Below are positions 8,670-63,961 of a stretch of DNA of 64,000 nucleotides, piece after piece. The stretch lies in the NCBI GenBank assembly GCA_001600875.1, contig BCLD01000018.1, forward strand, positions 684,689-748,688, read 5' to 3'. Every line of letters begins with the position of its first letter. Position 1 is the first letter of the stretch. Source of the stretch: Solicoccozyma terricola. Its lineage: Eukaryota; Basidiomycota; Tremellomycetes; Filobasidiales; Piskurozymaceae. The notes under the pieces are model-generated. The model did no database searches and had not been told where the DNA came from. It worked only from the letters and a program-made list of their open reading frames with translations. The position numbers were made by a program, and so were the translations under genes.

Positions 8670-9990
8670 ATGGAATACGAGGAAGCTATCGAGGTTTATC
8701 GGTCCATCCCTTTCAACCATGCATTACCAGTACGTCACTCTCTCTCCCTCCTCGCCATCCCTTGCCCCAAGTAACCCCCACCCCAACGCTGATCACGTCG
8801 ACAACGTAGTCAGGCGCAATAGCAGGACTATCCGTAGATTTACTCTTCTTTCCTCTCGATACGGTCAAGACGAGATTACAATCATCGAAAGGGTTTTGGA
8901 ATGCAGGAGGGTTCAAGGGGATATATAGGGGAGTAGGTTCAGTGGGTGTCGGTGGTGCTCCTGGAGGTGAGTCAAGCTTTGAAAACAAAAGTATATGGGG
9001 AAGAGGGTGAGCGAGCTGATCGTCGTACAACAATTTGTGATATGCAGCCGCGGCGTTCTTCACGACTTATGAAACGTTGAAAGAACGATTACCTCAATGG
9101 TCGAGTACTTTGAGGGAATCATCAGCATTAACTCATATGACAGCCGCATCTGGTGGTGAACTCGTACGTCGTTCATTTTCGTTTCCCCTTTTTTTTCCCC
9201 CAACTCCCATCGACAAGGATAGAAAACTGATGAGCAGTCTCACCCACCATTCCTCGTTCTCTCTCCAGGTCGCTTGCTTGATCAGAGTTCCAACTGAAGT
9301 AGTCAAATCTTTGACTCAAACATCTGCATATGGTCTTGCACCGAATAAAACATCGAGTTTAGAGAGTGCTAAAGTATTATTGAGGAGTGAAGGGATACGA
9401 GGGTTTTATCGTGGATTCGGAATCACCGTTACTCGAGAGGTTAGTTCATTTTCCTCGTCGTCTTTCATCCCTACTATAAGAAGCTGACGAGCTTAACAAC
9501 TGGTTCGTGCAATTTAGATTCCATTCACATCAATCCAATTCCCATTATACGAATACCTCAAATCTACTCTATCACGTAGATATCTACCAAATGGTAGAAA
9601 ACCTCTGCCACATGAAGCAGCAGGATGTGGGATGATAGCTGGTGGTGTAGGCGCCGCACTGACGACGCCGTTGGATGTAGTCAAGACGAGGGTCATGTTG
9701 GAAGTTAAGGTACGTCTTTATCACGCCTGCGTTTGAGCTTACCGTGGGATAATACTGAGCCGTGGTGGTGGTGGCTGGTGGTGGTACAGGACGCATCTGG
9801 GAAAAGATCATCTGGAATGTCAACATCTTTCCTATCGATTCCATCAAGGTTAATCTCGATCGCATCGAATGAAGGTGTTGGAGCGTTGTTTTCAGGGGTT
9901 ATTCCGAGGACGATATGGATTTCTTTGGGTGGAGCTGTGTTTTTAGGGGTTTATGAGGGTGCAGTGGACGTTTTCGCAGGGAGAATATGA
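8670..9990 (+). CDS. Mitochondrial S-adenosylmethionine carrier (Pet8/SLC25A26 type)
   Basis: Inner-membrane carrier that by family imports S-adenosylmethionine into mitochondria. Six exons (8670-8729, 8810-8966, 9048-9163, 9269-9439, 9518-9709, 9790-9990) give 298 residues, close to the family norm. Seen: three mitochondrial-carrier repeats with signatures PLDTVKTRLQ, PTEVVKSLTQ and PLDVVKTRVM, each following a SGAIAGL/ASGGELV/GMIAGGVG helix, and the partner motifs GIYRGVG, GFYRGFG and ALFSGVIPR. The odd-numbered helix starts SGAIAGLSVDLLFFPLDTVK and AAFFTTYETLK are typical of the SAM branch. Substrate is inferred from resemblance to Pet8/SAMC. It converges on the kelch gene. Confidence 0.9.
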
Positions 9991-59796: not shown

Positions 59797-62616
59797 ATGG
59801 AATCATTCGTCGATATCACAACGACCACCTTCCAGGCTATTCTGGCTGTATGTGTCGTCTTCACAGCAGGATACGCTTTCAACGGCAAGCGTGGAGGGGA
59901 GTTGAGCACGGTGCGGTTCCCAAGACAGAATGGAGTAAGATGCACAACCCTACTGACCTCGTCCGACCGCTCCAGACCCTCGTCTCTGTGGCTAGAAATC
60001 TCCTACTGCCATGTCTCTTACTCACAACGTTCGCTTCGTCGTCGATGCTCACCTGGCGTCGATTGATAAGCTGTAAGTAGACCTGGGTGACGGTCAAAGG
60101 TGTGTGGAGGACTGACAAAATGGATGTCTCGATCAGTTTGGCCCATCCCGGTCATTGCTCTGGTCAGCCATGTGGCCTCGTTGACAGTGTCTCTACTTGT
60201 TTGGCGTTATGGCTCCACCCCGGATTGGATCGTCGAGTCCTTGACATACAACAAGTGAGTACGGCAGAAGTAAACAATCCGTACGTACGTCAAGACATGC
60301 TCATTCGATCGTTGTCTACAGCGTCGCATCATATCCCCTCCTACTGATCCTCGCTCTGTATCGTATATCTCCAACCGATAATGTCGGCGGTCTTTCTCAC
60401 CTCGAGTGGAGGGTAATGGACAGCACGAAAGACGTCATGGAGCGATCGGTCGTGTACACACTCGTCAATCTGGTCGTCGTGGAGTTGTTCCGGTGAGTAT
60501 GAGGATTGGGGCGTTTATTATACTGTCCTCCAGCCGACTAATCTCGCACTCAAACGACAGAACCTTGCTCAACCCTCTCATCGCCAAGGTAATCCCTGCC
60601 GCTCGTCCAGCTATCAAAGATGAAGACACCGACGAGTCTACCGATCTCATCCCTGACACCCCTACATTCCCCGACGAAGCCACTGAACGCACCCCACTCA
60701 TCAACACGTCGCCTCAAAACACTTCTACATCCAGTCCAACCTCCCAAGAAAGACTGGTCGGCGTTTCTCTCATGTCGCCAATCTTCATCTTCTCGCTTGT
60801 AGGATTGCTTATTGGCTTGATCAAGCCAGTTCAGAGAGGTTTTGTGGGTGTTGGTGCCGGTGATTCGGATGGATCTTGGGCTTGGCAGAGTGTTGGATCG
60901 GGGTTGGTACTTCTCGGAGCTGCGTTTGCGGTGATCGAGATGGTAGGTGTGGGCGCTGGGATCAAGGCTGGAGAGAAGAAGGCGTGAGTGTGTGGAGGGC
61001 GTTGAGATGATGAGAATATCACATTATTAAAGTCCTTCTTCCTCAGCTCTCCCGAGGACAAGATTCCGCCAATTATCGGTACGATCCTTCTCATTACCAT
61101 CTTGCGATACGTTGCTTTACCCGCGATCGTGATCTCGATCGTCCATGGATTCCGTAAGATACCTTCGACTACATTGTACTTGCAGGATCCCGCGTTTGTG
61201 AGTGATGTTGCGGCGAGGCGTGGTGATATAGGTTGAACCTTTTTGTTTCGCACCCAGTCCTTCACCTTATGCCTCTCCGTCATCTCCCCACCGGTTCTTC
61301 CACCAAACCTCAATCCTTTCCGATCCTACGTCCTCTTCTTCACCTTTTACCTCACCATCATCACGTCGTTCGCTGTGGCAGCTGCTATTGCCGTCTCGGG
61401 TCGCGGCGTCTCATTCGAGAACAACTTTGATGTCAAGAGAGCACTCAAGGCGGCGGTCGGTGGTGGTCTGGCAGGTGCTGCGGCCATGATCGTTCAAGTT
61501 TTATCCCTGATGCCGTTGAGGACAATCATGAATTATCAGTATAGGTATGGTGGTACTACCAAGAACGCGACCATGACACTTTGGAGAGACGGGGGTTTCA
61601 AACGGTACTACGCCGGACTGGGTGCTGCATTGTGAGTATGCAGTCAGGCTCGTCTAAGACTGATACTGACCCTTTCCCTCGAGCAGGTTCCAAGCCCCTC
61701 TGTCACGCTTCGGTGACACGGCTGCGAATGCCGGTATCTTCGCTCTCCTCGATTCGTTGACCTGGCCAGTCCTAGTCAAGACCGTAGCAGCCTCCCTCTG
61801 CTCGTCCTGGTTCCGCATGACATTGACACCCATCGACACACTCAAGACCACTCAACAGACGCAAGGTCGTGTAGCTGGATTGAAACTCCTCAGGGAGAGG
61901 ATCAAGGAGAAGGGGGTGGGTAGTTTGTGGTACGGTGCGATGGCCACCGCTGTCGCCACTTTTGTTGGACATTGTGAGTGGGAGTGCTTTGTATGAGGTT
62001 GTTGGAGTCTGACCATTTTGTGCCGATCGCAGACCCGTGGTTTGGTGTGAGTCTTTCGGCGATATCCACATTTGTGTCTAGGAGTCGCTAAACTTTGATT
62101 CGCCACGTAGACATATAATTACCTGTCGGATGTGCTCCCCCTGCCTCATTCGGTCTTCCAAAAGCTTGCCGTAAGTGTCTCGATCACGTCGTTCAGACGG
62201 ACTACACACTGATGGTTCGGCTACCTCTAGCGACAAGCTTTCATAGGCTTCGCGGCGTCCGTTGTGTCGGATTCAGTGTCGAATAGTCTACGAGTAGTCA
62301 AGACGTATCGACAGGTTCATGAGGGTTCCGTTAGGTATAGTGAGTGTCTCTTTGTGGATGGTTGCGCGTGGTTCCTGCTGCTGACACTCGCCGCAGTCGA
62401 AGCCGCCAGGAGGATCATCGCCGCTGATGGCATTCTCGGCCTATTTGGTCGTGGGCTCGTAACGAGGTTACTCACTAACGGGCTTCAGGGTCTTCTTTTC
62501 AGTGTCCTGTGGAAGCTATTTACCGAGCTGTGAGTGCGGGGTCAAGCAGTTGAAGACGTATTCCCCTTTGACCCGTTTGTCCGCCTCACAGAATTGCTGG
62601 TAAAGGCAAGGTGTAG
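59797..62616 (+). CDS. AEC/PIN-like transporter fused to a mitochondrial-carrier-type domain
   Basis: Thirteen exons in one continuous frame: 59797-59934, 59976-60072, 60137-60254, 60322-60492, 60561-60983, 61047-61197, 61258-61631, 61687-61973, 62033-62046, 62111-62170, 62231-62339, 62397-62529, 62592-62616; 699 residues. Residues 1 to about 410 look like a fungal auxin-efflux-carrier family (AEC) transporter: paired membrane helices (LAVCVVFTAGYAFNGKRGG; LVSVARNLLLPCLLLTTFAS), NNVASYPLLLILALYRIS, a loop with Asp/Thr/Ser, then IIGTILLITILRYVALPAIV, LYLQDPAFSFTLCLSV and SYVLFFTFYLTIITSFAVAA. Residues 415-699 resemble mitochondrial carriers: AAVGGGLAGAAAMIVQVLSL, FQAPLSRFGDTAANAG, LTPIDTLKTTQQTQGR (PxDxxK), LFGRGLVTRLLTNGLQGLLF. 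The junction is inside exon 7 and the carrier half has no ATG of its own. The last short exon is optional; an alternative stop is at 62531. Confidence 0.74.
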
Positions 62617-63193: not shown

Positions 63194-63961
63194 ATGGATC
63201 AACGATATGCTGGCATCCCTGTCAAGAATTGCCACGTGGGCTTCGGCGGAGATCAATCCCGTCGCCACCGCAAAACGGATGTCACCGACCAGCAAGCACT
63301 GCCGACAACACCACCACCCCACCCCCACCACCACCACCACCACCACCACCACCGCAAACATACCTCATCTTCACCGTCAAGCATGGATGCACGCAGCCAT
63401 GTGTGCACCGTCTGCAAGGTGCGATTCGTCAAAGCGGAGCATCTCCTTGTAAGCATTCCGCTTGTAGCGCCATTGAGATCCCGATCGGTGACTGAAACAT
63501 CGTAATGTCATGACAGAGACATGAGCGGAGCCGTAAGTGCTACTGAGTGGCATCAGTCACTGTGGTTGCTGATCTCCCGTGGTAACGCTACAGACACCAA
63601 GGCACGTCCATTCTCATGTCCAACATGCAACAAGCAGTTTACTCGCCAGGACTCCCTTTCGCGACACGTCCGGCTACACACCGGCGGCCCCTCGGGACCA
63701 CTTGCCCGCCCTACAAGGACAAGAAATCAGCGATCCGATCAGCGATCCGATCTGATGGATCAGGCAGCCTATTCCACGACCGATTCGCCGAGGCAACTTC
63801 GAGCTAGTAAATCTCTATCCCCGATCACAGTGTCAGACCGCGAGGATGGATCAGAGTTGGAGGTCTCAAATCCCACTGTCTACGATCAGGAAGACCTTGC
63901 TGGAGATGCGATGATCCTCGAGTTAGTGACAACGAGGGCTCGGTGGTCGAGCTGCAATTGA
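63194..63961 (+). CDS. C2H2 zinc-finger protein, possibly truncated by the window edge
   Basis: Probable DNA-binding transcription factor. Exons 63194-63448, 63517-63532 and 63594-63961 give 212 residues. Seen: a His tract encoded at 63326-63356, then two tandem C2H2 fingers: HVCTVCKVRFVKAEHLL with HERSH completed across two introns, and FSCPTCNKQFTRQDSLSRHV with RLH. Both have C-x2-C-x12-H-x3-H spacing. An in-frame ATG at 63383 is an alternative start. Downstream is Ser/Asp-rich. The stop at 63959-63961 may be an intron read-through: a GTTAGT donor sits near 63920, so a larger regulatory domain may lie beyond the window. Confidence 0.7.

Follow-up and report, generated by a model that had tools for sequence, protein, structure and literature searches.

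A predicted fusion of a PIN-like AEC transporter with an SLC25-type carrier in Solicoccozyma terricola and other Tremellomycetes

Structure of the fusion gene

The DNA analysed here (64,000 nucleotides of Solicoccozyma terricola, contig BCLD01000018.1, positions 684,689 to 748,688; hereafter the window) carries on its forward strand, at 59797..62616, a gene whose predicted product joins an N-terminal half of the AEC (PIN-like transporter) family to a C-terminal half of the SLC25 (mitochondrial carrier) type. An earlier note, made from the sequence alone, had described thirteen exons in phase across both halves, and the raw sequence reproduced this model: 12 GT-AG introns, 41-68 nt long, separate exons that together give an open frame of 699 codons. 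Eight residues that follow ELST at the end of exon 1 in that model were missing from 9 out of 9 aligned relatives. Because these residues are absent from the relatives and are removed by the use of a GT donor at 59911, exon 1 probably ends at 59910 (59797..59910), and the protein would have 691 rather than 699 residues. The first intron (59911-59975) would then measure 65 nt instead of 41 nt, the remaining introns being of 55-68 nt. Full-length orthologues exist for the whole gene.

The AEC half, with ten predicted transmembrane helices, occupies positions 59797..61401 (exons 1-6 and the start of exon 7), and a short linker, GRGVSFENNF (61402..61431), leads to the carrier half, with three repeats and six predicted helices (61432..62613, from the rest of exon 7 to exon 13). 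As proposed in the earlier note, the join lies in the middle of exon 7 (61258..61631), where the coding sequence passes from AEC helices 9-10 to carrier helices 1-2 without an intron or an upstream Met codon. Since the earliest Met codon of this exon (residue 443) already lies within carrier helix 1, exon 7 offers the carrier half no separate start. Carrier helix 1 follows about 11 residues after AEC helix 10 in a structural model of P0001, an orthologue from our database search, and the join could be aligned across 37 proteins, the window protein included.

Identity and distribution of the two halves

A Pfam search of the window protein returned a match to PF00153 (E 6.5e-20) and, with either gene model, none to PF03547 at E<=10. 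A single Pfam domain, which the earlier note had named as a refuting outcome, is literally what this one sequence shows, though not what its orthologues show. Among the fusion proteins (window protein and fragments included), PF00153 was matched by 26/26 and PF03547 by 16/26 (best E 4.9e-16), and six of ten orthologues scanned singly exceeded the curated PF03547 cut-off. In P0001 the match (E 6.3e-12) extended over residues 12-377 and profile positions 3-319 of 343, that is, over most of the ten-helix half. Since the window protein is 65% identical to P0001 over its full length, it belongs to the AEC family through this homology. The P0001 model has the ten-helix PIN-like fold and matches LYCHOS and PIN8, the nearest solved folds of this half being those of LYCHOS/GPR155. 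A profile built from 10 N-terminal halves retrieved 22 proteins, all of them fusions or fusion fragments, and no stand-alone AEC relative at E<=1e-3, in a search limited to the 7998 candidates with the most shared words, which may have missed distant AEC proteins; the same profile gave 0 matches to solved chains at E<=1.

The carrier half has the three Mito_carr repeats and six helices of the SLC25 family, and the Px[DE]xx[KR] motif of that family is intact in repeat 2 only (PIDTLK), repeats 1 and 3 reading PLRTIM and SLRVVK. These readings agree with those of the earlier note, which had called repeats 1 and 3 degenerate, and the departures turned out to be shared by all members compared. In an alignment of 227 carrier rows (36 fusion, 14 protist and 177 other; 8 of 235 were excluded as too short), the P, D and K residues of repeat 2 were intact in 227/227, and the acid and base positions were occupied by R and M in repeat 1 and by R and K in repeat 3, with the exception of one gap. 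Such uniformity across all 227 members marks the departures as a family feature and not as recent decay. In the bovine ADP/ATP carrier, matrix salt bridges pair the acid of helix 1 (H1) with the base of H3, that of H3 with H5, and that of H5 with H1. With this pairing, two of the bridges are impossible and the H3-H5 bridge is possible in 227/227 rows; with the opposite pairing none can form. The stronger statement that no matrix salt bridge is possible was dropped, since with the former pairing the H3-H5 bridge stays available throughout. In helix 2, R498 and D501 were found in 227/227 rows and Q493 in 226/227, which argues for a conserved function; SLC25 binding-site contact points were placed by eye and were not used as evidence. 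Altogether, the carrier half is an SLC25 member at the level of the fold and not a canonical mitochondrial carrier, and it belongs to an atypical SLC25 clade whose members in other fungi are stand-alone carriers preceded by a short tail and a single helix.

Four divergent relatives of this carrier (P0103, P0104, P0105 and P0112) show a second, unexplained architecture of the same clade: they have no predicted extra helix, and their N-terminal regions align with each other and, judged by eye, resemble Tudor domains. In P0103, P0105 and P0112 a UVR-type domain (PF02151) comes next. Another SLC25 gene, with four PF00153 matches, lies in the window at about 8798-9975 on the forward strand (C18:693486-694663).

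A database search with the whole protein gave 119 matches, 28 of which align over at least 99% of its length, and 36 of which (P0001-P0036) contain parts of both halves. The named bearers of the fusion belong to Kwoniella, Cryptococcus, Naematelia, Tremella, Kockovaella, Papiliotrema, Vanrija, Naganishia, Filobasidium, Phaffia and unplaced Tremellales. Four taxonomy look-ups place the fusion in the orders Tremellales, Trichosporonales, Filobasidiales and Cystofilobasidiales, and the remaining named genera are presumably Tremellomycetes as well. Matches from outside this class (Agaricomycetes, Ascomycota, Pucciniomycotina) consist of the carrier without the AEC half. A search with the carrier half, allowing proteins of 154-490 aa, yielded 3711 matches at E<=1e-20, and among the best 120 of these there was no named Tremellomycete stand-alone carrier, only fusion fragments. 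P0029 (713 aa) contains the whole fusion and is encoded on an intron-free contig of 2353 bp, and P0120 (357 aa), which contains the join, comes from one of 1120 bp; both would fit spliced transcripts, the library type not being stated.

In a quick tree of 79 carrier domains, the 23 sampled fusions formed one clade with a value of 99 in the Shimodaira-Hasegawa-like approximate likelihood-ratio test (SH-aLRT). This tree, made without bootstrap, included 79 hand-chosen sequences of the 227 rows (P0036 not among them), and 32 of its 76 inner branches had support below 80. The fusion thus appears to have arisen once, and the finding of fused orthologues contradicts the possibility, raised in the earlier note, that they are always encoded as two genes. 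In the same tree P0229, a carrier recorded from Ceratobasidium sp. 423 (Basidiomycota), nests inside the Ascomycota clade, through either contamination or transfer. The protein database already shows the two-domain architecture through its precomputed Pfam labels; our searches of an open-access library found no paper on an AEC/PF03547 and SLC25/PF00153 fusion, either for fungi in general or for Cryptococcus.

The genome of S. terricola itself revealed no second locus close to either half (5 candidates scored; next match E 0.17), and it does contain more distant AEC loci and many SLC25 loci. Two AEC-type loci, examined as open frames only, were recorded on the reverse strand: a clear one at G000:C22:214187-214402 (E 2.7e-10) and a weak one at G000:C4:135511-136575 (E 1.1).

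A conserved sorting motif and the proposed location of the fusion

Most columns of the long loop between AEC helices 5 and 6 are poorly conserved, and within it E217, T219 and L221 are invariant in the 35 fusion rows that have the loop (P0028 and P0035 start after it and are outside this count). At position 222, V occurs in 20 rows, L in 12 and I in 3, the overall pattern being ExT[PS]L[LIV], with a proline preceding the dileucine in 26/35 rows. The window protein bears ERTPLI, encoded at 60685..60702 of the forward strand. All 35 rows thus show a conserved acidic dileucine-type motif ([DE]xxxL[LI]) if V, which is outside the strict published form, is allowed as second residue, in a segment taken as cytosolic because section 2.1 of PMC9330825 describes the central loop of fungal AEC proteins as cytoplasmic.

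Stand-alone fungal carriers carry an ExxPL[LIV] motif in the N-terminal tail, and a tail ahead of a single extra helix is the layout of 159/163 rows; in the model of one of them, P0037, the tail (residues 1-53) is below 50 in predicted local distance difference test (pLDDT) and the helix spans residues 74-99. Before the carrier, [ED]xx[PS]L[LIV] was present in 35/37 fusions, 146/156 stand-alones and 2/14 protist relatives, with 5.9, 7.0 and 0.4 expected from shuffled sequences, respectively, and within the carrier core it was found in 0/37, 3/156 and 3/14 rows. The form with proline only was present in 26/37 fusions, 146/163 stand-alones and 0/14 protist rows. The set of 156 was derived from 184 stand-alone rows after removing 5 without anchor, 16 that were over-long or had a late anchor and 7 with a short N-terminus. 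The fusion fragment P0120 was counted among the stand-alones in both motif counts (as a miss in the 156-row count), and the labels "fungal" and "protist" were assigned by sequence similarity.

In LYCHOS, the domain behind the ten PIN-like helices begins in the lysosomal lumen (PMC11574030). In the stand-alones, the mean net charge is +1.1 before the extra helix and -1.6 after it (155 rows), and in P0001 the carrier loops that would face the cytosol contain 14 K+R and 6 D+E in 103 residues, vs 3 and 4 in the 40 residues of the other loops. The count of K+R alone, however, shows no side preference (78/155 stand-alone rows). From these sequence features, the start of the carrier would be luminal in the fusion and in the stand-alones alike: ten AEC helices with luminal ends, or a cytosolic tail with one helix, would keep both the orientation of the carrier and a cytosolic signal.

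We also considered whether AEC helix 10 might be the N-terminal helix of the stand-alone carrier itself, as could be suspected from BLAST alignments of several stand-alone carriers that begin at residue 382. The segment in question is short, however, and the match of the AEC fold to LYCHOS (model residues 6-399) takes in helix 10.

Altogether, we interpret the fusion, with a probability of about 0.6, as a single 16-helix vacuolar or late-endosomal protein, made of a divergent AEC/PIN-like transporter and an atypical SLC25 carrier and conserved in four Tremellomycete orders, its vacuolar location and any substrate being putative. Since the chain begins with ten AEC helices, it should be inserted at the endoplasmic reticulum (ER). 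Its dileucine-type signal would be recognised by the adaptor protein complex AP-3, which would deliver the fusion to the vacuole. The ten AEC helices, with both ends luminal, may have taken the place of the single helix of the stand-alone carrier, preserving orientation and sorting signal. The two halves could move or sense linked solutes across one membrane, with a weaker matrix-side gate in the carrier half than in canonical carriers. The yeast protein Ypq1 offers a precedent for the sorting step, as its EQQPLL, an acidic dileucine form in a cytosolic loop, is recognised by AP-3, and a proline ahead of the dileucine has been noted for several cargoes of this (ALP, alkaline phosphatase) pathway (PMC4649669). 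Our search of an open-access library found no paper linking the vacuolar membrane, SLC25 and dileucine signals.

The alternative that we weigh most seriously, although we consider it rather doubtful, is that the carrier half does not transport and serves the AEC half as a structural, lipid-scrambling or sensing module, in the manner of MTCH1/2 and SLC25A46. The altered motif charges of repeats 1 and 3 in all members compared would suit such a role, as would the N and K that replace the cytoplasmic-gate acids at H4 and H6, positions placed by eye; the network charges are likewise not conserved in MTCH1, MTCH2 and SLC25A46 (PMC7611774). On the other side, the likely cavity-lining residues of helix 2 are almost invariant, and the intact motif of repeat 2, with one salt bridge possible, looks like a kept function. 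It is unlikely that the fusion is instead a protein of the ER or of the plasma membrane and recycling endosomes, with a motif that serves AP-1/AP-2 or endosomal sorting and a carrier half that is simply carried along. AEC proteins have been described as ER or plasma-membrane proteins, the dileucine class is not specific to one adaptor, and the Cryptococcus version, E-x-T-S-L-L, resembles the DEESLL of Chs3, tied to exomer/AP-1 sorting (PMC3463608). Against this stands the proline ahead of the dileucine in 26 of the 35 rows, the feature noted for AP-3 cargoes (PMC4649669).

That the carrier half is a true mitochondrial carrier, with the fusion sent to mitochondria or bridging mitochondria-ER contacts, appears quite improbable. 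Mitochondrial carriers usually have no mitochondrial signal. The fusion begins with ten hydrophobic AEC helices, two of the three matrix pairs are impossible in every row, and the dileucine-type motif occurs in nearly all sampled fungal members, fused or alone, which makes the mitochondrial nature assigned to this half in the earlier note doubtful. The earlier note had also suggested a dual transporter or a protein bridging membrane contacts; the former may still apply, whereas a linker of about 11 residues is too short to span two membranes, and there is no sign that the halves sit in separate ones. We regard it as extremely improbable that two neighbouring genes were merged by a wrong splice model. 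Such mergers probably explain the carriers joined to PF20684 in P0049 and P0086 (two Fusarium) and to PF16491/PF01435 in P0060, P0092, P0097 and P0102 (Rhizoctonia/Ceratobasidium), but here the two halves meet within a single open exon without an upstream Met; their join can be aligned across 37 proteins, takes the place of the usual N-terminal tail, and is present on the intron-free contigs. The joins to PF20684 or PF16491/PF01435, though probably merged neighbours, do recur in related species.

SLC25 proteins are taken as mitochondrial by default, and here a fungal SLC25 clade, fused or alone, bears a conserved signal of endolysosomal type. If the vacuolar interpretation is true, the vacuole has an SLC25-type carrier, and many "mitochondrial carrier" proteins in databases may be misplaced; some share of the 3711 carrier-half matches would belong to this clade. 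More speculatively, a fungal clade of vacuolar (lysosomal) SLC25-type carriers might be hidden under that name. The Tremellomycete fusion would then be an independent fungal counterpart to LYCHOS, acting as a transporter-sensor of the vacuole that might link its solute or sterol status to signalling; we hold this whole proposal to be unlikely at present. Downstream of the fusion gene, at about 63195-63960 on the forward strand, the window contains a C2H2 zinc-finger-like sequence with a long poly-histidine run.

Comparison with known systems

Unlike canonical SLC25 proteins (UCP1, the ADP/ATP carriers, the GTP/GDP carrier), the carrier half has R/M in H1 and R/K in H5 in place of the charges of the matrix motif, and the fungal members of its clade bear a dileucine-type sorting motif. 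It resembles MTCH1/2, SLC25A46 and the peroxisomal SLC25A17 in that these are SLC25 proteins outside the inner mitochondrial membrane; the network charges of the first three are not conserved and the matrix network of SLC25A17 is weak. They sit, however, in the outer mitochondrial membrane or the peroxisome, and the part of PMC7611774 on which this comparison draws calls none of them vacuolar or a fusion. MTCH2 and SLC25A46 were absent from the structure-match lists of our models, an absence that excludes nothing. Plant non-mitochondrial carriers are mentioned, none of them as vacuolar, in the cited section of PMC7408384.

The likeness to Ypq1, also a multi-helix transporter, concerns only its sorting signal, the EQQPLL of a cytosolic loop; Ypq1 is an unrelated protein of the PQ-loop family (PMC4649669). 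With respect to Arabidopsis PIN8 and the AEC family (PF03547), the AEC half of the fusion is divergent in sequence and bears a second transporter-type domain. The nearest system in plan is LYCHOS/GPR155, a lysosomal PIN-like transporter fused to a domain resembling G-protein-coupled receptors (GPCRs) and found in animals and their close unicellular relatives (PMC12716839). The second domain of LYCHOS is a seven-helix GPCR-like domain with DEP, whereas that of the fungal fusion is of SLC25 type, and no DEP match was obtained for the window protein at E<=10 in Pfam. PIN-like transporters joined to a second multi-helix domain in both LYCHOS and the fungal fusion suggest that this has happened at least twice, so that AEC domains may be modules that function together with a partner. 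The fungal fusion is similar in plan to LYCHOS, yet apparently independent of it.
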